Source: a virus. From it: DNA of 64,000 nucleotides. Both the position numbers and the translations under genes were made by a program. Below, piece by piece: positions 9,395 to 36,179 of the stretch. The stretch lies in the IMG/VR virus record IMGVR_UViG_3300031576_000022, positions 1 to 64,000 of that record, one strand, 5' to 3'. The number at the start of each line of letters is the position of its first letter. Position 1 is the stretch's first letter. The notes beneath the pieces were generated by a model. It was not told the origin of the DNA and ran no database searches. It saw only the letters and a list, made by a program, of their open reading frames with translations.

Positions 9395-10222
9395 TTAATT
9401 ATCCTCCCAATCGTCGATTCCAATAACCTCAACCTTTCTTCTTATTTCATTTATTGTTGAATATAAAATTTGTCGGATTCTTTCTCTTGTTAATTCTGGT
9501 TTTATTTCTTTTGATATTTCCTTTAATGTCATTGATTGATGGTATCCAATTCCATATCTCATTTTTATTATTTTTTGTGTTCTCTCTGGAAGATTATTTA
9601 TAAGTTTAGCAACTTCGTGTATACATTCAGATGACATTATATTTTTTAGTGTAGTATTTCCTTCTGATGGTTCATGAATTATATTGTCAGTAGATACTAC
9701 AGTATGTACAGAATTAGCTTGTATAATTGCATTAATTGTAGAATGTGTTATCTTGCATCCCTTTCCTATTGCATATGGAATCATTGGTTTGATTGCTAAG
9801 TTATGATCTCCTCGTGCAGATAGTATATTTTTTATTTTTTCTATTCTTTTTCTGATAAATTGCATATAAGATGGAACTCTAATTCTTCCAGAAGATTCAA
9901 TTGCTCTTAATATTTTTTGTGTAATCCATAATGTTGCATAAGTTGAAAATTTAAATCCTGCGCTTGGATTAAATTTTCTTATTGCATTAAATAATCCAAT
10001 ATTTCCTTCTGATATTAAATCTTCAAAAAGAACACCTTTTCCTATATATTTTTTTGCTATAAGTATTACAAGGCGAAGGTTTGATGTAATTAATTTATTT
10101 CTTGCTTCAATATCACCAGATAACGACCTAAGTGAAAGTGATACTTCTTCTTCTTTTGTAAGTAGTTTATATTTTGATATTTCTTTAAAATATAAAAAAA
10201 TATCAATTTGAAGTTTACTCAT
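9395..10222 (-). CDS. phage sigma-70-family factor
   Basis: 275 residues. Residues about 44-110 carry region 2 (LVILIAKKYIGKGVLFEDLISEGNIGLFNAIRKFNP, with KFSTYATLWITQKILRAI for -10 recognition and melting). Residues about 205-262 carry region 4 (LPERTQKIIKMRYGIG, then TLKEISKEIKPELTRERIRQILYSTINEIRRK), the -35-binding HTH. Region 1.1 is absent, as in group 3/RpoH-like or phage factors. It should direct RNA polymerase to phage promoters; the TTGAC(C/T)-17-TATAAT promoters in this window are candidates (inference). The N-terminus overlaps the upstream membrane-protein gene by 8 nt. Confidence 0.9.
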   Translation of the reverse strand: MSKLQIDIFLYFKEISKYKLLTKEEEVSLSLRSLSGDIEARNKLITSNLRLVILIAKKYIGKGVLFEDLISEGNIGLFNAIRKFNPSAGFKFSTYATLWITQKILRAIESSGRIRVPSYMQFIRKRIEKIKNILSARGDHNLAIKPMIPYAIGKGCKITHSTINAIIQANSVHTVVSTDNIIHEPSEGNTTLKNIMSSECIHEVAKLINNLPERTQKIIKMRYGIGYHQSMTLKEISKEIKPELTRERIRQILYSTINEIRRKVEVIGIDDWEDN

Positions 10223-10499: not shown

Positions 10500-10567
10500 A
10501 CATCTTCTTTCTTTATGTAAAATCTTATAAATTCTTTTATTAAATTTTGATTATTAAAATTTTGTTC

Positions 10568-10964
10568 GGTGGACCTGCGGGAGAATTGAACTCCCGGTCT
10601 CATGATATTCTGCCTTAAAGCTCTCGTTCACGCTTATAGCACATTCGGTTTGGTGTTTATTTTAAATTTAGCGCCGATAGGCACCGCTAAATTGTTGCTG
10701 CTTTAACGTGCTCATCGGGTTATCGCAGCGACCCGAATCATTTTTCCGTGCTGAATTATGCATTGTTCCGATCGCACGGTTTCGGACAATACATCGCTTG
10801 CTGCGGATTAGGCAGCGACGGCCACAAAAGCGCGAGCGCTTCCGGGGCCAGCGAGCAGATTGTCGTTCTTGGCAATTATTGGTTCTCCGGGTGATTTACG
10901 AGGCCAACCGGAATCCTCGAAGCGCGAGCTTGGGCATTATATCTGATCGATCCCTTTCAGGCCC
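10568..10964 (-). ncRNA. ssrA: tmRNA (transfer-messenger RNA), one-piece
   Basis: Rescue RNA that recycles stalled ribosomes and tags the nascent chain. The 5' end GGGCCTG (complement of 10958-10964) pairs with the 3' strand CAGGTCC (complement of 10571-10577); the third pair is G.U, the alanine identity element. A T-arm (CGGGAG, loop TTCAATT, CTCCCG) precedes the 3' strand, and GGGATCGAT near the 5' end fits the tmRNA D-loop region. The tag frame is at 10808-10873. Several helices match the pseudoknot domains, including TTGTTCCGA/TCGGACAA (10763-10789) crossed by CCGTGC/GCACGG (10746-10751 with 10774-10779). ACC is encoded but the final A of CCA is not. No smpB is seen in the window. Confidence 0.93.
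10808..10873 (-). other. tmRNA tag reading frame
   Basis: Resume codon GCC at 10873; the encoded tag is 21 residues, beginning AKNDNLLAG and ending RAFVAVAA before TAA. The N-D-N start and the hydrophobic VAVAA end are typical of tags recognised by ClpXP/ClpAP. It is longer than the usual 10-15 residue tags and contains an internal Gly/Pro/Ser/Arg stretch. The stop lies in a GCTGC/GCAGC hairpin, as is usual for tmRNA. Confidence 0.9.
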
Positions 10965-10979
10965 ATTTATTGCATTTAC

Positions 10980-11008
10980 AGCATACGCCTGCCTTTCCGA
11001 CGAGTCAA
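10980..11008 (-). promoter_or_regulatory. tmRNA promoter
   Basis: On the minus strand TTGACT (11003-11008) and TATGCT (10980-10985) are 17 bp apart, 15 bp upstream of the mature 5' end, leaving a short leader for RNase P. Its -35 is one arm of a perfect inverted repeat with the rightward TTGACT at 11037. Confidence 0.65.
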
Positions 11009-11036: not shown

Positions 11037-11187
11037 TTGACTCGAATGCAAAAATCGCAGAGAATTGACGCGCGAAAGATGATTGAAGATTTCGACCGAA
11101 ATCGTTTCAGCCGATTTTTGTCGGTGGATAAAAACCGCCAAATCTTCTTCATCATGTCAACCGTCTATTGGAATATCGGGGAAAACA
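11037..11187 (+). promoter_or_regulatory. divergent promoter and structured leader of the ParB-like gene
   Basis: TTGACT at 11037-11042, weak -10 GAGAAT at 11060-11065 after 17 bp. The leader holds an 8-bp helix GAAGATTT (11085-11092) with AAATCTTC (11140-11147) enclosing CGA/TCG (11093-11104), CCGA/TCGG (11111-11124) and GGTGG/CCGCC (11123-11139). The last two share bases 11123-11124, so they are mutually exclusive. GGGGAAAAC is the ribosome site. Possibly a cis-regulatory RNA (inference). Confidence 0.5.
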
Positions 11188-12297
11188 ATGGCGACTAAAG
11201 ATCCAACCGACTACACCTATTTAGATGAAGTAGCAAAACAAACAATTCCCGGTGGTACAAAAAAGATTGGTATGTTTTTTCCTGAAGAATTGACGTTGAT
11301 TCGTGATAGGGGTCATTATTTGTATGACCCTCGTGTTGAAAAAGAATTCGATGAAGATATTGTAAAAGGAATTATGGAGATTGGGCTATCAAAATCTATT
11401 GATGCACAGAAAATACGTATGGATGATGGTACATGTATTCTTGCGGTTACCGATGGTAGGCAGGGAATAATAAATACTTTAGAAGCAAATCGCAGATTAG
11501 TTGAACGTGGAGATAAACCATTAAAGGTTAAAGTTGAAGTTAGAGAGGAAGATGAAACGCTTGCAATTCGCCGCATGGTTATAAATAACGAGCATGTTCA
11601 ACTAGATGATCCAGTAACAAAAGGATTCAAGGCTAATAGATTGAAAGAGAGGGGTGTTCCGGTTGAATTGATTTGTCAAGATTTTCGTTGTGTTCCAGAA
11701 ACGCTATCAAATTGGATTAATCTTACCAAGTTATGTGTTTACGTTCAAAAATTAGTTCAGACAGAAAAGCTCGCAATGACTGCTGCGTTAAAATTACGGA
11801 GCCTTTCTCCTACTGAGCAAAAAGTGGAGGCTGATAAAATTGTTGCTGGTGTAAAAAAATCGAGTCGTGGTGCTGGCAACGAACATAAAGGTGTTGATAA
11901 GAGAAGAATTAAAAGGTTGCATGAATTGCTTGGAACTAAAAATGAAATAGTAAAAAGGGTTTTTGATTGGCTTGTTGGTAATCTTGAAGATGATAGTGTA
12001 AAAGATTTGATTAATTTTGATGTTTTATTAAAGGATAGTGGAAAAAATAATAAAAATGATAATAATTCGAATAATGGAGCTATTGGGAAAAGAGGAAGAA
12101 AGAAAAGGGAAAATCAAATTGATGATACTGAACAAAACAGGACGCTTGCTGCTATATTTGGACATAGAAATGTTGATGTTGATGGCAATATTGATGATAA
12201 TCTCGATGAAGCAGATGGTGATCTTGTTAGTGATGAGGATTTAGCCTGTTTGGTTGATGATGATGGGCTGGACGATGGGATCTGTAGCGATGATTAA
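11188..12297 (+). CDS. ParB-like nuclease/partition-domain protein
   Basis: ATG 11188 (MATKDPTDYTYL) follows GGGGAAAAC; the longer frame from 11083 runs through the structured leader and is rejected. 369 residues. Residues about 50-150 have the ParB/Srx layout (DEDIVKGIMEIGLSKSI, VTDGRQGIINTLEANRRL); a helical DNA-binding middle follows (LICQDFRCVPETLSNWINL resembles an HTH). The C-terminal third is Asn/Lys-rich then strongly acidic. Roles could be genome partition or ParB-type regulation. An in-frame copy of the 15-bp motif at 11804 encodes SPTE. Confidence 0.75.
   Translation: MATKDPTDYTYLDEVAKQTIPGGTKKIGMFFPEELTLIRDRGHYLYDPRVEKEFDEDIVKGIMEIGLSKSIDAQKIRMDDGTCILAVTDGRQGIINTLEANRRLVERGDKPLKVKVEVREEDETLAIRRMVINNEHVQLDDPVTKGFKANRLKERGVPVELICQDFRCVPETLSNWINLTKLCVYVQKLVQTEKLAMTAALKLRSLSPTEQKVEADKIVAGVKKSSRGAGNEHKGVDKRRIKRLHELLGTKNEIVKRVFDWLVGNLEDDSVKDLINFDVLLKDSGKNNKNDNNSNNGAIGKRGRKKRENQIDDTEQNRTLAAIFGHRNVDVDGNIDDNLDEADGDLVSDEDLACLVDDDGLDDGICSDD
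11804..11818 (+). repeat. dispersed 15-bp motif, copy 5 (intragenic)
   Basis: TTTCTCCTACTGAGC inside the ParB-like gene, sense orientation, encoding part of LSPTEQ. Confidence 0.75.
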
Positions 12298-16775: not shown

Positions 16776-18272
16776 ATGGTTAATTTTAATTTTAATCAAT
16801 TTAATCAGTTTGATTTATCAGTAAATACTGATAATCTTGAAGCTATTCAATGTTCAATGGATTTTATTCATTTTTTAAGATATGTAAAAACTACAACTGT
16901 TGATGGTAAAGTAGTAAGTATTCCGTTAGATTGGCCGTATATTATAAAACTTTCAAAAATGTTAATGCATGAGAAGCGCCTTGTTGTACTCAAGGGACGG
17001 CAGATGCTTTGTTCTTGGATTATTGTTGCATATGCTGTTTGGGCTTGTTTAAATCAAGAAAATCTTATTATTTTGATTTTATCAAAAGGTGAAAAACCTG
17101 CACAAGAAATGATTCGTCGTGCATATGAATTGTATGATCGTCTTCCTAGTTTTCTTAAAAACATAATTCCATTACGCGATGGTCCACGTAATATGGAAAA
17201 GGTTGAATTTAATAATCGTTCTCGTATTATCTCTCTTCCATCAAAAGGTGATGCACCACGAACTGTTTCTGCAAAGATTGTATTTATTGATGAAGCTGCA
17301 TATGCGCGTGAATTAGATGAAATGCTTGGTGCGATTGAGCCTGCTCTTGGTGAAGAATCTAAACTATTTATTGTTTCGACACCAAATGGGAAACCAATAG
17401 GACGTTCGTTTACTAAATTGTGTAAAGAAGCTGAGAATAAGGGTTATCGTAGATTTGATCTTCATTATAGATTGTGTCCTGCATATAGAAATCCTGAATG
17501 GGAGCAACAAAAACGTAGGTCGATGACTCAGGCCAAGTTTGCTCATGAATACGAGCTTTCGCTTGCTTCATCTGGCGATTCCATGATTTTTGCAAAGTTG
17601 TCAGAAAAAAATGATTGGGAGGGAAGTTTTGTTCCAAATGAAAATTATGTATTAATGAGATGTGTTGATCCTGGTGAGAAGATGGGTGTTATATGGATTG
17701 CAGAGGACATACTTGGAAATATTATAGCTTATAGAGAATCGTATCTTCATGGTGGTAGTTATGAACGTCGTGCTCAAGCAATTTTAAGGAAATCTCCTGA
17801 TAATGAATTGTATGATTGTTCTGTTATTGATTCGGCTGCACCAGATGCAAAGCGCGAATTAGGAAAACATGGAATATATTGTAGGAGCTGTATTAAAAAA
17901 GATGTACATGAAACGATTGATCAAATTAATACTTTAATAGAAGGTAATGGACTTGACACTCCATGTTTATTTATTACAGATGATTGTCCTAAATTAAAAG
18001 AACAAATGCAGTCATGGGTTGGTGATGATTGTGGTTATCCTGTTAAAAACCAATATGATCATGGAATTGATGCATTGAGGTATGGAGTTCAAATTCGTTT
18101 TAAGATTCGTAAGAATAAATCTCAAGGATTTATTACAGAACAAGCACAATCGGATTTGAATATTGATAAAGATTTTGAAATAGAAATATCAAGCGATACA
18201 ATATCTCGTGGTGATGGCATCGACCATAACCGAGATTTCAGTGAAACAGATTTTGATTTGGGTTGGATTTAA
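16776..18272 (+). CDS. large terminase subunit (packaging ATPase/nuclease)
   Basis: 498 residues. Walker A-like KGRQMLCSW at 73-81, Walker B IVFIDEA at about 168-174, coupling motif VSTPNG near 201. The C-terminal RNase H-fold nuclease shows RCVDPG near 299, VIDSAAP near 353 and YDHGIDALRYG near 427, giving the acidic metal ligands. Together these drive ATP-dependent DNA translocation into the prohead and cleave the concatemer. Starts one base after the preceding stop. Confidence 0.95.
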   Translation: MVNFNFNQFNQFDLSVNTDNLEAIQCSMDFIHFLRYVKTTTVDGKVVSIPLDWPYIIKLSKMLMHEKRLVVLKGRQMLCSWIIVAYAVWACLNQENLIILILSKGEKPAQEMIRRAYELYDRLPSFLKNIIPLRDGPRNMEKVEFNNRSRIISLPSKGDAPRTVSAKIVFIDEAAYARELDEMLGAIEPALGEESKLFIVSTPNGKPIGRSFTKLCKEAENKGYRRFDLHYRLCPAYRNPEWEQQKRRSMTQAKFAHEYELSLASSGDSMIFAKLSEKNDWEGSFVPNENYVLMRCVDPGEKMGVIWIAEDILGNIIAYRESYLHGGSYERRAQAILRKSPDNELYDCSVIDSAAPDAKRELGKHGIYCRSCIKKDVHETIDQINTLIEGNGLDTPCLFITDDCPKLKEQMQSWVGDDCGYPVKNQYDHGIDALRYGVQIRFKIRKNKSQGFITEQAQSDLNIDKDFEIEISSDTISRGDGIDHNRDFSETDFDLGWI

Positions 18273-18579: not shown

Positions 18580-20364
18580 ATGTTGTATACATCAAGATTA
18601 GATCATGAAGTTCCAACCAAGGGAATTGTTGATCGTCAGGTTGGTGATCCATTTAAGAAATGGATTGATGGAGAGATTTTAACAGAAAATACATTTGATG
18701 AATTTCATAATTATCTTTTTGGTACAAAAGTTTTTGAGAATACTGATCCATTAATTAAGGAAAGAGGGTTTCGTATTCTTGATAAGATGATTGATACTGA
18801 TCCTAGTATTAAAAATGCATATTGGAGTCGTATTTTTACAATTCTGTCTGGTGGATATTCGATAAATCCAATGGAAGAAGGGTGTGAAAGAAGCGAGGAA
18901 ATTGCTAATTTTGTAAAATGGAACTTTATGTTTTTTTGTAAAGTATCTGTTGCTTCTTTTCTTCGTAAGTTACTTGATAGTCAAAGACAGGGATTTAAAC
19001 TTGCTGAAATTATTTGGAAAGTTATTGAAGATGAAGGACCATATAAGGGTAAGATTGGTATTTATGATTTGATTGTTCGTGATTCTAGAAATTATTCATT
19101 TTTGACTGACGAAAAGGGTCGAATGGATCCGATGGGTGTTATTGAAGGGATTTCTTCAACTGGATTTTGGACGACGGATGGTGAGCCAAGACAATTACCA
19201 ACAAATAAATTTGTTATTTATTCATATTTAGCTCTTGATGATGATGCTGCATCAATCTATGGAAACAGTGATTTCCGCGCACTTTGGCGAGCGTTTTATG
19301 GTGACCTAACTGCACATAGACTTGAATTGCGTTCTGCTGAAACATTTGCTCGTCCACCATTAGTTGGATCTGTTTCTCATGGAGAATACACAAAACCTGA
19401 GCAAGACAAGATTCTGAAAGATTTAATTGGAGCTTATAATAGGGTTTATACACAAATTCCAGAAGGTGTAAAGGTTGAAGAGATTGGAGTTAAGCGTTCA
19501 GATACACGAGCATTTCAGTCTTTGCGTGAGAGGCACCATTCTCAGATTAAAAACGGTATGCTTATGGGTACGCAGGGTGGTAGTGGAGATTCTGATAGAG
19601 AAAGTGTTAAAATTCAAACTCAGATGCTTGTTACTAATCTTGATGCAATTTCAAGCGATATTTCTGATGTTGTAATGGAACGTCAAGTCATTCGTAAATT
19701 AGTTGATGTTAATTATCAGACTCAAAAGTATCCAAGTTTTATGGTTCCAAAGCTCGCAATTGACAGAAAGAATCGCGCCGACTTTATTTCAATATTAATA
19801 GAACGTGGAGTTATCGCGCCAGATGAACCATGGATTCGCACCTTTGTTGATGTGCCAAAACAGGATATGGCAACAAGAAATCGTCAAATATCAAAAAAGA
19901 ATAGTGATAAGGAGGTTGCTAATGCAGCCACAAGTGCAATTGTTTCTAGTGGTAAATTAGATAATAAATCGAATACTGGATTTAGTTTAATCAATAAATC
20001 TACCGAACTTTCCATGAGTGGTAATTCATTAATTCTTGAGGCGTTTTCACACAAAGATGTTCGCGAATTTAATGGAGATAAAAATCAAATAAATGTAGAT
20101 AAGATCCTTGATTTCATGGTTGTTATTAAAGAAAAAGATAATGGTCAAATTAGTATTGATTCAATCGTAAAAGATGGGGTTCAAGTATCTGATTTTGAGA
20201 AGCAATTAGAAAAAATCGTTGATGAAAACCCTCAGAATAAATTTTTCATTGCTAAGGTTTTCGGAGAAAGAAAGAATATTGATGGTGATGGTGTTGTAAA
20301 ATTGATGAGAGTTATTAGAGTAATTTCACCGGAGCCTCGTGACAGGGTGGTCGTTGTAGAATAG
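18580..20364 (+). CDS. Mu gp29-type portal protein (DUF935 family)
   Basis: 594 residues. N-terminal third contains FLRKLLDSQRQGFKLAEIIWKV and FVIYSYLALDDDAASIYGNSDFRALWRAFYGDL, characteristic of Mu-like portals; later KNGMLMGTQGG and SDISDVVMERQVIRKLVD continue the portal core. The final 140 residues after a Ser/Asn-rich linker are an extension, with a domain (VREFNGDKNQINVDKILDF, KLMRVIRV) that I do not recognise. The portal forms the dodecameric DNA channel. Its stop is 10 bp before the transposon target duplication. Confidence 0.88.
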   Translation: MLYTSRLDHEVPTKGIVDRQVGDPFKKWIDGEILTENTFDEFHNYLFGTKVFENTDPLIKERGFRILDKMIDTDPSIKNAYWSRIFTILSGGYSINPMEEGCERSEEIANFVKWNFMFFCKVSVASFLRKLLDSQRQGFKLAEIIWKVIEDEGPYKGKIGIYDLIVRDSRNYSFLTDEKGRMDPMGVIEGISSTGFWTTDGEPRQLPTNKFVIYSYLALDDDAASIYGNSDFRALWRAFYGDLTAHRLELRSAETFARPPLVGSVSHGEYTKPEQDKILKDLIGAYNRVYTQIPEGVKVEEIGVKRSDTRAFQSLRERHHSQIKNGMLMGTQGGSGDSDRESVKIQTQMLVTNLDAISSDISDVVMERQVIRKLVDVNYQTQKYPSFMVPKLAIDRKNRADFISILIERGVIAPDEPWIRTFVDVPKQDMATRNRQISKKNSDKEVANAATSAIVSSGKLDNKSNTGFSLINKSTELSMSGNSLILEAFSHKDVREFNGDKNQINVDKILDFMVVIKEKDNGQISIDSIVKDGVQVSDFEKQLEKIVDENPQNKFFIAKVFGERKNIDGDGVVKLMRVIRVISPEPRDRVVVVE

Positions 20365-21567: not shown

Positions 21568-22506
21568 TTATGTCTTATCGGATGAATTCTCTATTGTATT
21601 GTCTGTAGATTTACCAAATAATCGTTGTAAGATATCGTCTTCCGACTCATTTGATGCTACAGAATGGTGATTTTTTCGTATATATGATTTATCAATAGGA
21701 TTTAATATTTCACCATTTAATTCCATTTGAATATCTAATCTACGAAGACCTATTTTGATGTACTCAAGCTCTTGCTCTATACCGATAAATTTGCGTCCAA
21801 GTCTTTTAGCTACAGCACCTGTTGTAAATGTACCGGCGAATGGATCGAGAATTAAGTCTCCAATATTACTACTAGCCAGTATGATTCTATCAAGAAGCGA
21901 TTCTGGTTTTTGCGACGGATGATTTTCATATTCTGGCATTCTATATCTAACACGCGGAAAATACCAGGTATTCCCTGGAACTTTTTTAGTATTATATGGA
22001 GTTGGAGTGGCTTTTCTATAATCAATTAAATTGCGAACTGCTCCAGTTCTTGCTTCTACCATAATATCTTGAGCATTGAATGTATAGTTTGTCTTGTCCA
22101 TTACTAATAAAAGGATCGGCTCGTATAATGATCCAAAATATTTTTTTGCTTGTACGCCAGAACTATCGTAATGCCACACTATTCTTGACAGAACGTCAAT
22201 ACGTTCTCGTACATAACAATCGATCAATGGCATTGCCTGCGTACTTGTCATCAGGTACATACTCGCAGTCGAAGCCATTTTTTTTATGCAAATATCAATC
22301 CAGCGGCAACACCATGAGAAATATTCCGTATCAGACTCCCATTTGTCGTCAAAATCACCGAATTTCTTTCCTATATTGTATGGAGGATCTGCAAATATTA
22401 GGTTGATAGAACCATCAATAACCGATTCGTCAAGAATTTCAAGACTATCTCCGTGTATTATTCGGCATCCATCTTTTTCATATATACTTTTCTTGAAATT
22501 ATTCAT
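21568..22506 (-). CDS. YhdJ-like N6-adenine DNA methyltransferase, ATGCAT-type
   Basis: ATG 22506 (MNNFKKSIYEKDG), overlapping the end of the upstream 109-aa gene by 8 nt. Catalytic DPPY at residues 40-43 precedes the SAM-binding DPFAGT at 221-226, the beta-class order. Segments GVQAKKYFGSLYEPIL, LIDYRKATPTPYN and VPGNTWYFPRVRY closely follow E. coli YhdJ (M.EcoKII), which methylates ATGCAT. About 312 residues; the tail after MELNGEI is variable and Asp/Ser-rich. It should protect phage and host DNA from the adjacent nuclease. Confidence 0.93.
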   Translation of the reverse strand: MNNFKKSIYEKDGCRIIHGDSLEILDESVIDGSINLIFADPPYNIGKKFGDFDDKWESDTEYFSWCCRWIDICIKKMASTASMYLMTSTQAMPLIDCYVRERIDVLSRIVWHYDSSGVQAKKYFGSLYEPILLLVMDKTNYTFNAQDIMVEARTGAVRNLIDYRKATPTPYNTKKVPGNTWYFPRVRYRMPEYENHPSQKPESLLDRIILASSNIGDLILDPFAGTFTTGAVAKRLGRKFIGIEQELEYIKIGLRRLDIQMELNGEILNPIDKSYIRKNHHSVASNESEDDILQRLFGKSTDNTIENSSDKT

Positions 22507-22828
22507 GTTTGTTGTTCTTGGCGTCCGCTGCGATTGACGCACGCACCGCATCGCGAGCGGAGTTTATGGGAGGAAACCCGAGTACGACGACTGCTTCAAG
22601 AGTGCCGTCGTCCCGTTCGCGTTCCCAAGCATAGACGCGCAAAGAAGATGGGCCAATTTCAAAAATTTCGACGACGCCGTCCCACGCAACTTTTCCCTGC
22701 CACAATTCCTTGACATGAATAGGCTTAAGTAGGTTTTTGGCGGTGCTGCCTGCGGCTCTCTCGACCGCGACGAGCAGGCTATCGATTTCATCGATCTTGT
22801 CTGGCAGGCTAGCCACTGTTAGAGTCAC
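22499..22828 (-). CDS. hypothetical protein upstream of methyltransferase
   Basis: 109 residues from GTG 22828 (TLTVASLPDKIDEI), stop overlapping the methyltransferase ATG, so first gene of the R-M operon. Contains a beta stretch GVVEIFEIGPSSLRVYAWE and VVVLGFPPINSARDAVRASI. The strand pattern faintly recalls HigB/RelE-type toxins but catalytic residues cannot be assigned. It has no HTH, so it is not an ordinary C-protein. Higher G+C than the other R-M genes. Confidence 0.6.
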   Translation of the reverse strand: MTLTVASLPDKIDEIDSLLVAVERAAGSTAKNLLKPIHVKELWQGKVAWDGVVEIFEIGPSSLRVYAWERERDDGTLEAVVVLGFPPINSARDAVRASIAADAKNNKHE

Positions 22829-23013
22829 GAATGAGGTTGATGAAGCCGATTTGCCATGGAAAATACGTGAGACGAAACACTAGCAAGCATCGGAAATCGG
22901 TACCATAAATATTTGCAATAGTTTGAGATAAAAAAGATAGCAACAATTGCGTATCGAAAAGTCGGCACAAAACCATTCCATGGATTATGGAGAAAAACAT
23001 GAGGCTAGTGAAG

Positions 23014-23116
23014 GCCCTGACGATTGCAGGTAGTGGACGGATTGTCAGGGCTGTAGAAACACGATGACCGTAGCTGATTCCCTGAGAAGGTCGGCTACGG
23101 CCATCGCCAGTCCACT
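23014..23116. ncRNA. candidate structured RNA with H-type pseudoknot
   Basis: Helix 1: GCCCTGAC (23014-23021) with GTCAGGGC (23044-23051), 8 bp perfect. Helix 2: CGATGACCGTAGC (23062-23074) with GCTACGGCCATCG (23094-23106), 12 of 13 pairs, capped by CCT-GAGA-AGG with a GNRA loop. Helix 3: AGTGGAC (23032-23038, inside loop 1) with GTCCACT (23110-23116), 7 bp perfect, forming a pseudoknot that brackets helix 2. Strand is undecided, though the adjoining tRNA-like element reads on plus. Unknown family; topology is like HDV ribozymes but lacks P3. Confidence 0.65.
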
Positions 23117-23146
23117 CTACATGCCAATGAGGTAATCGACGTAATC

Positions 23147-23218
23147 GGGGAGCCAGGTGGCCCGGCGCGGTCGTTTAGAGGCTTAGCGCGAGGGGTTCGA
23201 TTCCCCTGCTCTCCACCA
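23147..23218 (+). tRNA. tRNA-like element without anticodon arm
   Basis: Acceptor GGGGAGC pairs with GCTCTCC, the third pair being G.U as in alanine tRNAs and tmRNA; canonical T-arm AGGGG-TTCGATT-CCCCT; encoded ACCA end. Only about 37 nt lie between acceptor and T-arm; GCGC/GCGC with a loop containing TTTAGAGG resembles a D-arm, and no 5+7+5 anticodon arm can be drawn. It may be an aminoacylatable mimic like the tmRNA tRNA-like domain, or a tRNA remnant. It ends 2 bp from the stop of the RHH gene. Confidence 0.55.
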
Positions 23219-23219
23219 T

Positions 23220-23393
23220 TTACGTCAACAACCTCTGACGCACCCAATCTACCAAAACCATGCCTTTGGCACAAGCTTTGTCTTCGATTACCGCAAGCTC
23301 ATCCGGGGTGAGTCGGACTTGAAGACGTTTCGTTTTCCCTTCTCCGGTGGGGAGGCGTGGACGACCGCGTTTTGGCTTCACTTTTTTCTTCAT
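23220..23393 (-). CDS. small ribbon-helix-helix regulator, 57 aa
   Basis: ATG 23393 gives MKKKVKPKRGRPRLPTGEG, then KTKRLQVRLTPDELAVIEDKACAKG and VDWVRQRLLT. A basic N-terminal arm followed by a beta strand (RLQVRLT) and two helices is the classic RHH/CopG-type DNA-binding fold. It is divergent from the transposase gene; three TGTCGTC repeats lie between the two starts, suggesting it controls transposition (inference). The strongest overlapping alternative frames have no family features. Confidence 0.75.
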   Translation of the reverse strand: MKKKVKPKRGRPRLPTGEGKTKRLQVRLTPDELAVIEDKACAKGMVLVDWVRQRLLT

Positions 23394-23419
23394 CCTCGAA
23401 TTTTATGGCCTGAATTTTG

Positions 23420-23476
23420 TGTCGTCCATAAATGGCAGCGGATTTTTTGTCGTCTGAAAATTCTTTTTTGTCGTCC
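23420..23476. repeat. three TGTCGTC iterons between RHH gene and transposase
   Basis: TGTCGTC at 23420, 23448 and 23469, the latter two preceded by a T-run. They occupy the divergent control region 23394-23520 and are candidate binding sites for the RHH protein or the transposase. Confidence 0.65.
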
Positions 23477-23520
23477 AGGAAAATCCTCGACACCTAGAAT
23501 TTCGGGAGTACAATATTTCC

Positions 23521-24345
23521 ATGGCCAACGTACTCCGGTTCGACGTTCAGGTTGCGGTGGTTACCGCGCTCATCGAAGGGAACAGTACCCGTTCCGTCGA
23601 GCGGATGACCCGTGTTCATCGTGACACGATCACGCGCCTGGGCGTGCGGGTCGGTGAGGCGTGCGCCGCGATGATGGATCGCGAGATGCGCGATCTCGAA
23701 TGCGAACGGATTCAGGTAGACGAAATTTGGGGATTCGTCGCGAAGAAGCAGAAGCACGTTCTTCCCACTGATGATATTTCGCTTGTTGGCGATCAGTGGA
23801 CCTGGGTTGCGATTGACGCCGATACGAAAATTGTTCCATCACATCTTGTCGGAAAACGCGATGGTGCTCATGCTCGTGCCTTTATTTGCGACCTTGCCTC
23901 GCGCCTGAAAAACCGCGTTCAAATTTCATCGGATGCGCTGGCGAGCTACGTTGAAGCAATCGAGGTTGGATTTGGTGGTGACGTCGATTACGGCCAACTA
24001 GTCAAAGTCTACGCAGCTACTACCGAAGGCCCGGCGCGCTATTCCCCACCAAAAATCATGCAGGCGACCAAAAACGTAATCGTCGGGCATCCGAGACACG
24101 AGCACATTTGTACCTCATACGTCGAGCGGCAGAATCTTACGATGCGAATGGCGATGCGTCGGTTGACTCGCCTTACGAATGCCTTCTCAAAGAAGGTCGA
24201 AAACCTTCGTGCAGCGGTCGCGCTTCATTTTGCGTACTACAACTATTGTCGTCGCCATCTCACGTTGAAGACGGCACCAGCTATCGCGGCCGGGCTGACC
24301 GATCGTCGGTGGACGGTTTCCGATCTTCTCGATCTTTCAAATTAG
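23521..24345 (+). CDS. IS1-family DDE transposase
   Basis: 274 residues. N-terminal HTH (VTALIEGNSTRSVERMTRVHRDTITRL), then the DDE core: VDEIWGFVAKKQKH with the first Asp, GDQWTWVAIDADTK, ISSDALASYVEAIE with the second Asp, and HICTSYVERQNLTMRM with the Glu. The C-terminus (LHFAYYNYCRRHLTLKTAPAIAAGL) is typical of the long IS1-type transposases found in many environmental bacteria. The frame is intact, so the element could still be active. GC-rich compared with the phage. Confidence 0.93.
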   Translation: MANVLRFDVQVAVVTALIEGNSTRSVERMTRVHRDTITRLGVRVGEACAAMMDREMRDLECERIQVDEIWGFVAKKQKHVLPTDDISLVGDQWTWVAIDADTKIVPSHLVGKRDGAHARAFICDLASRLKNRVQISSDALASYVEAIEVGFGGDVDYGQLVKVYAATTEGPARYSPPKIMQATKNVIVGHPRHEHICTSYVERQNLTMRMAMRRLTRLTNAFSKKVENLRAAVALHFAYYNYCRRHLTLKTAPAIAAGLTDRRWTVSDLLDLSN

Positions 24346-24354
24346 GACACCACC
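24337..24354 (-). repeat. right terminal inverted repeat
   Basis: Complement of GGTGGTGTCCTAATTTGA, 9 bp after the transposase stop; pairs with the left end. Confidence 0.93.
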
Positions 24355-24362
24355 ATCGGTTT
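24355..24362 (+). repeat. right target-site duplication ATCGGTTT
   Basis: Exact copy of 20375-20382. Confidence 0.95.
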
Positions 24363-24448
24363 GGTTTCGTCATTTGCTGTGATAGATTGTGGTGAGCGGC
24401 AATCCTCATCATCGTCGTAATGCTGTTCAGGGTGGAGAGGCTAGGACC

Positions 24449-27164: not shown

Positions 27165-28085
27165 ATGCCAGTCGCACGGAGCGAAGTGCATGTCGATACC
27201 GCACTTGGTAATCTAGCTCGGGAATTTATGTTTCCAGGCTTGATTGCTGATGTTATTGCGCCGCGGGTTAAGGTTAAGAAGGATAGTGATATTTATTGGA
27301 CATTTGGACGCGAAGAAATTCGTATGAAATTGGATGGTGAGGGTGACCTTACTGCGCCTGGTTCTCCTGCGCCGGATTTTGATTGGAAGCCAAGCGGAAG
27401 GGAAACATATACGGCTTTTAAGCGTGCGTTTGTGGATAAGGTTCTTGATGAAACAATCCGCAATGCTGATAGTCCGATTGCTCCGGTTTCGCGTACAATT
27501 GAAAAGTTGACACGACATTTACTGCTGCATCGTGAACGTCGTGTTGCAAAGCTTTTCACTACTGGTGTTGCATCTACTTCAACGCCTGCCATTAAATGGG
27601 ATATTGCAACCGCAGATATTGAAGATGATGTTCGTGCTGCAAAAGAAAGCTTTAAGCTTTCTGCTGGTGGTTATCCGAATACAATTGTTATGTCTAGTTC
27701 TGTTGCTGGATTAGTTCGGTTGTATTTGAAGGCTGCTAGTGAGATCAGCTTCAAAGAGAAGGCAACTATCGATAAGATTCCTGATGAGCTTTGGGGTATG
27801 AAGGTTGTTGTGTCAGAGGCGATGATGAATACTGCTGGTGAGGGTATTGCGGAGGTTATTACAGATATTTGGCCGGATACCGTAACGCTTGCGTATATTA
27901 ATCCGTCGAAGAATCCAACGCTTCAGGACAGTACGTTTGTGTGGACGTTTACGCCTGTTCCATTTCGTGTACGTCGTTGGCGCGATGAGGTTATCGAGGC
28001 AACTATGTACGAAGTTGGCATGTATGTTGCTGAGAAAGTTGTTGCTCCGTTTGCTGCTCATACTATCACGGATGTTTTGACTTAA
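27165..28085 (+). CDS. major capsid protein
   Basis: 306 residues. HVDTALGNLAREFMFPGLIADVIAPRVKV at the start, ISFKEKATIDKIPDELWGMKVVVSEAMM in the middle and VIEATMYEVGMYVAEKVVAPFAAHTI at the end fit HK97-fold capsids of the Mu T/E-type family. High expression is suggested by richer codons than neighbours. Preceded by AGAGGA. Confidence 0.88.
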   Translation: MPVARSEVHVDTALGNLAREFMFPGLIADVIAPRVKVKKDSDIYWTFGREEIRMKLDGEGDLTAPGSPAPDFDWKPSGRETYTAFKRAFVDKVLDETIRNADSPIAPVSRTIEKLTRHLLLHRERRVAKLFTTGVASTSTPAIKWDIATADIEDDVRAAKESFKLSAGGYPNTIVMSSSVAGLVRLYLKAASEISFKEKATIDKIPDELWGMKVVVSEAMMNTAGEGIAEVITDIWPDTVTLAYINPSKNPTLQDSTFVWTFTPVPFRVRRWRDEVIEATMYEVGMYVAEKVVAPFAAHTITDVLT

Positions 28086-32321: not shown

Positions 32322-35300
32322 ATGGCTGATATTAATGATAAATTGATTTTTAATCTTGAAGTTAATGCGGCAAGTTTTGCCTCTGAGTTGAAAAAAGCTG
32401 TAAATTCTGCTGTCAAAAATCTCACACCAACATTAATTGTTAAAGCTTCTGATATAAAATTGCAGGGTAAGGTCAAGGCTCTTGACCTGATTGACCTGAC
32501 CGGATTTGCAGAAGCGCTGAAAGCCTCTATACAGTCCGCAGCGGGGAGTTTCTCCCCTACTGGGCAGGCTATCAGTAAGGCTATTGCCCAAGGTGGCGTG
32601 TTGTTACCTAGACCTTCTGTGCGGCCTGATGGGTTGACGGCTAAGGCTGTACCGGGTGGAAATGTTGTAGATATACCATTAATTGCTGCTAAAGAGCGTG
32701 CAGCATTATTGAAGGCAATTGATAAAGAAGTAAATGCATTTGCAAGAGCTGGTGAAAGAATTAGAGTTTCCGAATTTAAGCAAGCTGAAAAAGAAAAGGT
32801 TCAGGCAGCGAAAGATGCTGCAAATGAAAGGTCCGCTGCTGAATCTCGTTTTGTAAAAAGATTGCGTGGAATACCAGATACTACTGGTTTGGCTAGTGAT
32901 TCAAGAACACCAATAAAAGCCTTTCCGCTTCCTGCAATTGTTCCTGGGTTAAATACTGCTACAACTAGTATTGCTGGACTTTCATCTATTATTGGTAATT
33001 TGAATGATTCTCTTACAAAAACTAGAACTATATCTCAATCATTATCTCAGATTTTATCGACGATTGGGGCACCAGCTATTGCTTTATTTGGTAAATTTAA
33101 TATTTCTGTTCAAAATGTGTTGCGTTCATTTGGTACATTAATATCTCAATCACTTAGGTTTGCTTCTATTTCATTTGGTGCAATAATTAGTGCATTTTCT
33201 AAAATAGCTGGTGCGGCAAGATCTGCATTAAGTCCTGTTTTATCATTAACATCTGCTTTAGTTAGATCAACAGCAATCCTTACTGGATCTGGACTTTTAT
33301 TTGGTGGTCCAGCATTTATTCCAGTTGCAACTGTTCGCGCTGCTTCTGTGGCGTTTGATGAGCTTAATTCATTTACAAAAGATGTTTCATTATCTGTTGT
33401 TCAGTTTAGTGATAAAATAGCTGCATTACAAGGTAGTGATCGTGTTGCATTTATATCTGATAAGTTCAGAGAACTTTCTGCTAGTGTTCAAGATACTTCT
33501 ACAAAGTTTGGATTAACATCAAAAGATATTGCTAGTGGATTATTTGAGATTTTATCGGCTCAGGTTGGTATTTCATCTACCGCAGAAAGGCTTGAAGCGC
33601 TTAATGCATCGGCACGGGTTGCGGTTGGCGGTGCAACTGATGTTGCATCAGCATTCAAGGGTCTTGTTGCAATTAATGCTGCTTTTAATACGTCGTTTGA
33701 GCAAGCATCTGATAAATTATTTGCTATTCAGAGATTGGGCATTGCTCCTGTTAAAGAGCTGGGTCCTCAGCTTGGTAGGGTGGCAAGTATTGCGTCTGAA
33801 GCTGGTGCAAATATTAATGAACTTGGTGCAGCTATTTCTACGATTACGTCTCGTGGTATTCCATTGGAGACAACATTTACAGGATTGCGTCAAGTGTTTG
33901 CTGAGCTTGCTTCTTCTGGTGGTGCTAGTATTCAAAAATTAGTGAAAGAAATACGAGAAACAAAAGGTATTGATATTACGTTTGATATTAATACATTACG
34001 TGCAGAAGGTGGTCTTAAGAGTTTCCTTGATAAATTGAATGAAATTAGAAGGATTGATCCTGGGTTAATTGGTAAGTTATTTCCTGATACTAGGTCTATT
34101 AGTGTAATTCTTCCTTTATTGGGAAGCGTTAGTAGATTTTCAAAAGATTTAGTACAAGTAGCTGGTGCAAGGGGTGAGGCTGAAGCCGCAAGCGATGCGA
34201 TTGTTAATACATTAGCTGGTTCTTATGATCGATTAAAGGCTGCCATTTCAAACAATGTTGTTGCTGGTGCAGATCATATAGCTTCTATTATCGGGTTAAA
34301 AGAAGTTATTGATGATATTATAAAAAGTTTGGATGATTTCCAGAAAAAAATTAGAGGAATTTCTTTTCTTGATTTGAAAAAATTTCTTGGTGATCTTGTA
34401 ACAACCAAAGATGGAATTTCTTCAATTGTTGAGTTTTTGTCTAGAAAATTTGGTGAGATTTCTGGTGTTCTATTAAAACAAACCGCTCCAATTTTACGTA
34501 TTGGAGCGGTTCTTGGGCTTACTCTTGGAAAGATTATAGGTGATGCTATATTTGGACAGATACAAGAATCAATTAGAAAATCATTGCCAAAAGTGGTTGC
34601 ATTAACTGATATATTTGATGATTTTGGAACTGAAGGAAAATCATTAGAAAGTCGCAGGATAGGTCCAAAAAAAGATGTTAGCATTGCTAGTTCAATAAAT
34701 GATTCACTAAAAGAATCATTTAAACTGATTGGTAATCTTGAGGCTTTTTCTGCTGGTATTGATGTAATATTTTCTGAAATGGAAGGTGTTGGTAAGAATT
34801 TTTCTAAATCGATTTTAGGTGCAGGTCTTACTCTTGAAAAACAATTTTCTAAATTAACCGTTTCTATTGATGCAGGTAGGATAGTTGATGATGCTAAATC
34901 ATTGCGTAATGTTCTTGAACAAGAAATTGAGGGGATAAAGCCATTTGATCCTACTATAATAAATTCATTTGTTAATGTTATTCAAAAACTTCAAGCTACT
35001 AATATATCTAAATCTGTTCTTGGTGGTATTGATGATAAAAATATTAATGATTTATTTAAATCAATAGGTGGACTTGGAAGTGCAACAATAGAATTAAAGA
35101 AAGCATTTATAGATCTTGGCGCCGATATAAAGATTCCAGGTATTGGTGAAAGTGTTGAGGTGATTGATGAACAAATTAAAAAATTAAGGGTTGGTATTGC
35201 TTTCCTTGAAAGAAAAGGATTTTCTGATGCCGCTAAGAATCTTTCTAATGGAATCAAAAGGTTAGAAGATTCTGTTGCTGGAACTTTTGATAAATCTGTT

Positions 35301-36179
35301 TTTGAAAAGCTTGGAATTAAAGATGCTGGAAATGATATACGTTCTCAGCTTGTTGCTGTAACAAATGCTGTGCGTGAGTTTGATAGTCAAATTAAAGGAA
35401 GGATAGGAACCGATGAAATTAAAAAGAAATTTATCGCATTAAGAAGTTTACTTAAATTTCTTGCAATTGAAAACTTGAGATTAGATGTTAGGTTCGATTT
35501 TTCAAGTACAGAAGAACAGGCTAAAATTGGTGCTGCAAAGGCATCTGAATTTATAAAGGATGCATTGAAGACTGTATCTGATCAGGTTTTCACAGAGATT
35601 CCTTCAATATTTGGAATATCATCGTTTAAAATACCAAAATTTGAAATATCTAAAATAGATAGAGATAGTTTGCAAAAACAAATCCAGCAAACACTTGGAA
35701 ACTTTAAGGGGATTCTTTCTGGTATAGAAAATATTAGTGGTTTTGAAATATTAAAAAAGCAGGTTCAAGATGCTATAAAAGAAATGGAAAAAATGCCAGG
35801 TATTGTAGAAAAGATTAAGGATTCAAGTAAAACAATTGGTGATGGTTTTGGTGAAGGATTTGATCAAATAACAATTCTTGTTGCAGATCAAGAGAGAGCA
35901 TTTGAATCTTTTAATAAAGCTTTGCGGGATACATTTTTGACTCAAGAACAGGCTGCAAAACGTGCCGCTGAAGCTCAAGCAAAACTTACTGAGGCTTACG
36001 AAAAAACTGCTGCTGCGGCACAAAAAGTTGCAGAATTACAAGCCGCTAATGCTGGACTTGTAGGTGTTCAATCTGCTCCAACATCAATAATTGATGCTAG
36101 AAATCAAACATTAAATGTAATACCTGGAATTGGATTCAACACTGGTCCGATTTTTTTCCCAAAAATTCCACCTAAATAA
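32322..36179 (+). CDS. tape measure protein
   Basis: AAAGGAGG before ATG 32322. 1,285 residues, the longest tail gene, with long helical stretches, a central small-residue/hydrophobic region (about 240-340) and repeated coiled segments to the end (KRAAEAQAKLTEAYEKTAAAAQKVAELQA). Length sets tail length; by the common rule of about 1.5 angstrom per residue, a tail of roughly 190 nm is expected (inference). Residues 60-115 are GC-rich and contain a motif copy encoding SPTG. Confidence 0.93.
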   Translation: MADINDKLIFNLEVNAASFASELKKAVNSAVKNLTPTLIVKASDIKLQGKVKALDLIDLTGFAEALKASIQSAAGSFSPTGQAISKAIAQGGVLLPRPSVRPDGLTAKAVPGGNVVDIPLIAAKERAALLKAIDKEVNAFARAGERIRVSEFKQAEKEKVQAAKDAANERSAAESRFVKRLRGIPDTTGLASDSRTPIKAFPLPAIVPGLNTATTSIAGLSSIIGNLNDSLTKTRTISQSLSQILSTIGAPAIALFGKFNISVQNVLRSFGTLISQSLRFASISFGAIISAFSKIAGAARSALSPVLSLTSALVRSTAILTGSGLLFGGPAFIPVATVRAASVAFDELNSFTKDVSLSVVQFSDKIAALQGSDRVAFISDKFRELSASVQDTSTKFGLTSKDIASGLFEILSAQVGISSTAERLEALNASARVAVGGATDVASAFKGLVAINAAFNTSFEQASDKLFAIQRLGIAPVKELGPQLGRVASIASEAGANINELGAAISTITSRGIPLETTFTGLRQVFAELASSGGASIQKLVKEIRETKGIDITFDINTLRAEGGLKSFLDKLNEIRRIDPGLIGKLFPDTRSISVILPLLGSVSRFSKDLVQVAGARGEAEAASDAIVNTLAGSYDRLKAAISNNVVAGADHIASIIGLKEVIDDIIKSLDDFQKKIRGISFLDLKKFLGDLVTTKDGISSIVEFLSRKFGEISGVLLKQTAPILRIGAVLGLTLGKIIGDAIFGQIQESIRKSLPKVVALTDIFDDFGTEGKSLESRRIGPKKDVSIASSINDSLKESFKLIGNLEAFSAGIDVIFSEMEGVGKNFSKSILGAGLTLEKQFSKLTVSIDAGRIVDDAKSLRNVLEQEIEGIKPFDPTIINSFVNVIQKLQATNISKSVLGGIDDKNINDLFKSIGGLGSATIELKKAFIDLGADIKIPGIGESVEVIDEQIKKLRVGIAFLERKGFSDAAKNLSNGIKRLEDSVAGTFDKSVFEKLGIKDAGNDIRSQLVAVTNAVREFDSQIKGRIGTDEIKKKFIALRSLLKFLAIENLRLDVRFDFSSTEEQAKIGAAKASEFIKDALKTVSDQVFTEIPSIFGISSFKIPKFEISKIDRDSLQKQIQQTLGNFKGILSGIENISGFEILKKQVQDAIKEMEKMPGIVEKIKDSSKTIGDGFGEGFDQITILVADQERAFESFNKALRDTFLTQEQAAKRAAEAQAKLTEAYEKTAAAAQKVAELQAANAGLVGVQSAPTSIIDARNQTLNVIPGIGFNTGPIFFPKIPPK
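32551..32565 (+). repeat. dispersed 15-bp motif, copy 11 (intragenic)
   Basis: TCTCCCCTACTGGGC in the tape measure gene, sense, encoding FSPTGQ. It lies in a GC-rich island of about 200 bp (32465-32665). Confidence 0.88.

Follow-up and report, generated by a model that had tools for sequence, protein, structure and literature searches.

A complete one-piece tmRNA gene with a 21-codon tag frame and a predicted six-pair T-stem in a tailed phage

Introduction

Bacterial tmRNA rescues stalled ribosomes and labels incomplete proteins for degradation. Its standard one-piece form (ssrA, RF00023) combines an acceptor carrying the pair G3.U70 with helix H2, four pseudoknots (PK1-PK4), a tag reading frame, a UAA stop in the loop of helix H5 and an A at position -4 of the resume codon. 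The equivalent of this base in E. coli, A86, is essential for activity and for frame choice, and the role of A86 and U85 ahead of the resume codon has been described (PMC2481249). Phages carry tmRNA genes as well, and a preliminary description of the present locus called them known but uncommon. This holds, with 402 of 18,146 phage genomes (PMC9004378) and 79 of 97,179 unique sequences (PMC11915505) having a tmRNA.

The Bxz1-like mycobacteriophage ET08 (GQ303260) encodes a one-piece tmRNA with a GGGCCUG/CAGGUCC acceptor, a five-pair T-stem and a long tag of 25 residues without an AA end, and the gene sits among about 30 tRNAs. Long-tag tmRNAs are also found in IMG/VR (for example L322 with the tag AKRNIVSFEASVAPVRLAIAA, L333, L299 and L314); these are one-piece RNAs with the GGGCCUG acceptor, five-pair T-stems and tags of 21-28 residues ending in AA. 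Mycobacteriophage DS6A carries a tmRNA-type molecule that is barely more than a tRNA-like domain and has no tag (PMC4131195, PMC11915505), and marine phages of the Melnitz type encode two-piece RNAs for trans-translation whose gene order is permuted (PMC9004378).

In this study, we describe a phage tmRNA gene that shares the whole architecture of the standard RNA. Like the ET08 and IMG/VR molecules it is in one piece and has the GGGCCUG acceptor and a long tag, but its T-stem is read as six pairs, its tag sequence is not that of ET08, and no nucleotide similarity to the long-tag IMG/VR RNAs was detected outside the conserved parts. It is complete, in contrast to the DS6A RNA, and its gene order is standard, unlike that of the Melnitz-type phages.

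Results

The window, that is the whole stretch of 64,000 nucleotides analysed here, covers the first 64 kb of a virus record of 86,248 bases. A cmscan search against Rfam revealed an RF00023 match on the minus strand at window positions 10964-10567, with a score of 100.6 bits (E 3.9e-38) against a curated cut-off of 47 bits. The model was matched end to end (positions 1-374) without truncation, and the match was the same when the whole record was searched. The preliminary description had placed the gene at 10568-10964, which is the right locus, although its start is one base off and no strand was given. The mature RNA from the gene (10567..10964, minus strand) is about 395 nt long plus the CCA end, and RNA position r corresponds to window position 10965 - r.

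The check proposed for the locus, by Infernal and ARAGORN, gave a divided result: cmscan returned the match above, while ARAGORN with default settings called no tmRNA at 10567-10964. This miss is most likely due to the six-pair T-stem and the lack of an encoded CCA. Three comparator tmRNAs (L166, L171 and L173), none of which encodes CCA, were also missed by ARAGORN.

The acceptor stem is formed by the 5' strand GGGCCUG (RNA 1-7; 10958..10964, minus strand) and the 3' strand CAGGUCC, which is followed by the discriminator A and CCG (10567..10577, minus strand). All seven pairs (1-7/388-394) are present, including G3.U392, the equivalent of the G3.U70 pair that gives alanine identity. The 5' end reads GGGC instead of the standard GGGG, and the gene-encoded 3' end is ACCG rather than ACCA, a difference that had been overlooked. 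An encoded CCA is likewise missing from two of the three phage tRNAs located at 72-80 kb of the record, which implies the use of a host CCA enzyme. One of these tRNAs, a 79-nt tRNA-Glu (L003 8108-8186, minus strand; record 72108-72186), has an odd acceptor end, AGTATC.

The remaining helices follow in the standard order on the minus strand, with boundaries that we read from the sequence with the help of the cmscan alignment and of folds. Helix H2 has its 5' strand at RNA 22-45 (10920..10943) and its 3' strand at RNA 330-361 (10604..10635), as placed by the cmscan alignment, the MFE fold and inspection. We identified four pseudoknots: PK1 (RNA 46-50/62-66 and 53-57/75-79; 10886..10919), supported by the cmscan alignment, the fold and a shuffle test; PK2 (172-183/194-206 and 186-191/214-219; 10746..10793); PK3 (229-234/245-250 and 236-240/264-268; 10697..10736); and PK4 (272-280/292-300, with a weak second helix at 288-291/317-320; 10645..10693). 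Judged from the structure line, the second helices are apparently unpaired in the Rfam model; they contain 5, 6, 5 and 4 Watson-Crick pairs in PK1 to PK4, with shuffle p values of 0.09, 0.004, 0.07 and 0.43. Jointly they reach p 0.0035 in shuffles, mainly from PK2, and PK4 is thus weak on its own. All 100 dinucleotide shuffles fold less well than the actual strand (z -3.8).

The T-arm (RNA 369-387; 10578..10596, minus strand) has a loop of the standard seven bases, UUCAAUU, and a stem, CGGGAG/CUCCCG, that we read as six pairs where the standard tmRNA has five. This feature had also escaped the preliminary description. Five pairs are the usual length and not a condition of tmRNA membership, and the Rfam model places the extra pair as an insertion, yet scores the whole RNA. 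The stem has five pairs in all 90 ARAGORN-called comparators (88 bacterial and two phage; 88 stems parsed by script, two by eye) and in seven of the eight comparator loci outside the ARAGORN-filtered set, which were parsed by pattern with L179 left out. The same was found at all of at least 80 IMG/VR sites with the same acceptor, using a pattern that permitted five or six pairs. The dinucleotide AC lies directly 5' of the T-stem in 90/90 comparators and also directly before the six-pair stem, so the six-pair reading is favoured over a bulge. RNAfold leaves the sixth pair open and prefers a nested alternative; the pair is thus read from the sequence, and with it the stack of acceptor and T-stem would count 13 pairs, as does that of selenocysteine tRNA. 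Such a stack could weaken the binding of EF-Tu or SmpB.

The tag reading frame (10808..10873, minus strand) starts with the resume codon GCC at RNA 92, contains 21 sense codons encoding AKNDNLLAGPGSARAFVAVAA, and ends with UAA at RNA 155-157. The stop lies in the loop of helix H5, whose core is GCUGC/GCAGC (10800..10816, minus strand). A 12-nt linker, GAACCAAUAAUU (10874..10885, minus strand), precedes the resume codon and supplies U at -5, A at -4 and U at -1. These bases agree with the 90 comparators, in which -4 is A in 90/90, -5 is U in 79/90 and -1 is a pyrimidine in 90/90. By inspection, a five-pair hairpin lies inside the tag frame at RNA 124-137.

The tag had been called longer than usual. 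It exceeds all 88 bacterial tags tallied (8-15 residues), a sample that covers the phyla of G013, G014 and G008 together with a few others; by seed-locus titles, Planctomycetota, Pseudomonadota and Bacteroidota are among the phyla of these three sets. For five of the eight filtered-out comparator loci, which stand outside this tally, ARAGORN lists tags of 9-11 residues. For phages, on the other hand, the length is ordinary: the ET08 tag has 25 residues (that of phage G has 13), and among the matches listed, 15 of 44 IMG/VR tags from tmRNAs sharing the CAGGUCC acceptor have 21-31 residues (one doubtful tag, L307, excluded). After related tags were collapsed, long tags made up 12/39 viral and 0/88 bacterial tags among the matches listed (Fisher p 2e-7), a contrast that is suggestive only, since a single acceptor sequence defined the viral set, whereas the bacterial set was assembled by phylum. 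Some bacteria also have long tags.

The tag AKNDNLLAGPGSARAFVAVAA ends in AVAA, and 14 of the 15 long viral tags among the matches listed end in AA. AVAA is the kind of C-terminal end read by ClpX, and this ending is compatible with proteolysis tagging. Near its start the tag carries NDN, which is shared by alphaproteobacterial tags (ANDNFEAHAVAA) and hints at a possible alphaproteobacterial host. Because both ends resemble an ordinary degron, the earlier suggestion of a different handling of tagged peptides finds no support. Some long viral tags (e.g. L280 and L330) look like a canonical degron after about 15-20 extra residues.

The tmRNA is flanked by phage genes on both sides. A sigma-70-type factor (9395..10222, minus strand) lies downstream on the same strand, and a ParB-like protein is encoded at 11083-12297 on the other side. 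The terminase large subunit (16776..18272, plus strand), portal (18580-20364), major head protein (27165-28085) and tape measure (32322-36179) identify the record as a tailed phage, which also encodes a head protease, a RecD-like helicase and a Sak4-like protein. A promoter-like TTGACT-17-TATGCT (10980..11008, minus strand) stands 15 nt upstream of the mature 5' end, and the count of this pattern is not above chance. We found no SmpB match in the record, which may be incomplete, and host SmpB is therefore probably used. An open reading frame made up mostly of Gly-Ser-Gly-Tyr repeats was also observed (L003/L004, record 81075-81605, minus strand).

This AT-rich phage contains a GC-rich insert (about 22500-24400) that encodes an IS1-like transposase at 23521-24345. 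The best relatives of the transposase are 60% identical in amino acids and come from several phyla, and they point to no host. At 23147-23218 (plus strand) we observed a 72-nt alanine-type RNA relic or mimic with an acceptor GGGGAGC/GCUCUCC including G3.U70, a T-arm and an encoded ACCA, and with no recognisable anticodon arm. Its RF00023 score of 20.4 bits does not reach the cut-off, no tRNA is called here by ARAGORN, and tRNA-Ala genes have a similar 3' part. The molecule is reminiscent of the DS6A RNA, which is likewise tag-less, but it folds with an unremarkable energy and may have arisen by decay of a tRNA-Ala.

Close relatives of the phage were searched for at the protein and nucleotide levels. 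Terminase, major head protein and RecD-like helicase queries against viral_contigs found no close relative, the sigma factor query found only two relatives there (36-37%), and the head-protein alignment contains relatives at 26-33% only. In 48 of the records with such a distant head protein, most of them fragments, no tmRNA scored above the cut-off. Exact pattern searches with the tmRNA gave no match, blastn in phages gave nothing significant, and blastn against 398 genomes of one phylum gave short conserved pieces only.

Discussion

The full-model match, intact acceptor, frame signal, pseudoknots and fold are together far more than chance would give, and the locus is a genuine full-length, one-piece, phage-encoded tmRNA gene. 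The claim of a complete phage tmRNA with G3.U70, a T-arm, pseudoknots and a 21-codon frame is borne out by cmscan and by the reading of acceptor and frame. With its six-pair T-stem, the RNA appears to be a structural variant of an already known kind of phage tmRNA, and we infer its function from its sequence.

We propose that this one-piece tmRNA probably works in ordinary trans-translation with host partners. Processing to the mature ends and CCA addition would fall to host enzymes, and charging of the RNA to host AlaRS. During infection, host SmpB and EF-Tu would then deliver it to ribosomes that have stalled on broken mRNA, where the nascent chain would receive Ala and AKNDNLLAGPGSARAFVAVAA and the ribosome would be freed at the UAA. 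The AVAA end would send the tagged protein to ClpXP-type proteases. The benefit to the phage would be that ribosomes stay in use under a high demand for rescue. The extra T-stem pair may be tolerated or tuned, and the length of the tag may be ordinary phage drift.

A different role is conceivable if the 13-pair stack allows entry to the ribosome and not full trans-translation. The RNA would then bind SmpB and mainly compete with host tmRNA, diverting stalled ribosomes or SmpB from host tagging. The six-pair stem was seen in no comparator checked (for IMG/VR, among the matches listed), and inhibition of tmRNA is known for RNAs with only the tRNA-like domain (TLD), phage DS6A being a case in point (PMC4131195; PMC11915505). 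The TLD-only type is defined by having no tag coding sequence; the present RNA has a 21-codon tag. However, it retains all that tagging requires, from the resume signal and the open tag to the H5 stop and the degron end, and a competitor would need none of this. We consider this role unlikely.

It is similarly improbable that the gene is a captured host ssrA no longer in use, or the trace of an integration into ssrA. Phages and islands often integrate at ssrA (PMC3029335; PMC11915505), and conservation was seen in no relative, no close relative having been found. However, neither end of the gene is missing and phage genes lie on either side, all helices and the frame are intact, and the additional base in the T-stem has its match on the opposite strand. 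Attachment sites in phages carry just the 3' part of the gene, and the attachment-site reading was rejected on account of the complete gene and its phage neighbours. The GC content of the tmRNA (51%) is above that of the record but resembles that of the phage tRNAs (49-56%); the excess was therefore rejected as a sign of recent capture.

The 13-pair stack might also make the tmRNA partly orthogonal and have it recognised by a specific SmpB or EF-Tu state or by a factor from the phage itself. Rescue with the phage's own long tag would then replace that of the host during infection, possibly with the tag-less RNA at 23147-23218 as a decoy for host tmRNA; we regard this as very unlikely. That bacterial DNA was joined to a viral contig during assembly is hardly credible: the GC content of the tmRNA is above that of the record, which also holds the GC-rich IS-like insert at 22.5-24.4 kb, but the structured RNAs of the phage are all about 50% GC, the flanks are AT-rich with the sigma-factor gene (start 10222) on one side and the ParB-like gene from 11083 on the other, and the 398 genomes of one phylum gave only short conserved nucleotide matches.

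Ordinary trans-translation with host partners remains our preferred reading, and the locus extends the known set by an intact tmRNA from a phage that is otherwise an orphan. Since the standard gene finder ARAGORN misses such tmRNAs, phage tmRNAs have probably been undercounted. With its six-pair T-stem, the RNA is a natural case for asking how exactly the acceptor/T stack is measured by tmRNA, SmpB and EF-Tu. Furthermore, the wider sample suggests that tags of at least 20 residues are commoner in viral than in bacterial tmRNAs, among the matches listed, and the role of long tags becomes directly testable through the viral ones.

Many viral contigs with tmRNAs, both one-piece and permuted, were observed in IMG/VR (L271-L350). 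ARAGORN called a tmRNA at 45 of the at least 80 pattern loci listed, and cmscan adds more; viral one-piece tmRNAs above the Rfam cut-off and uncalled by ARAGORN are found in L272, L306, L325 and L332. In L306, a match to RF02496 (Rhizobiales sRNA Atu_At1) at 622-729 on the minus strand adjoins the 3' end of the viral tmRNA.
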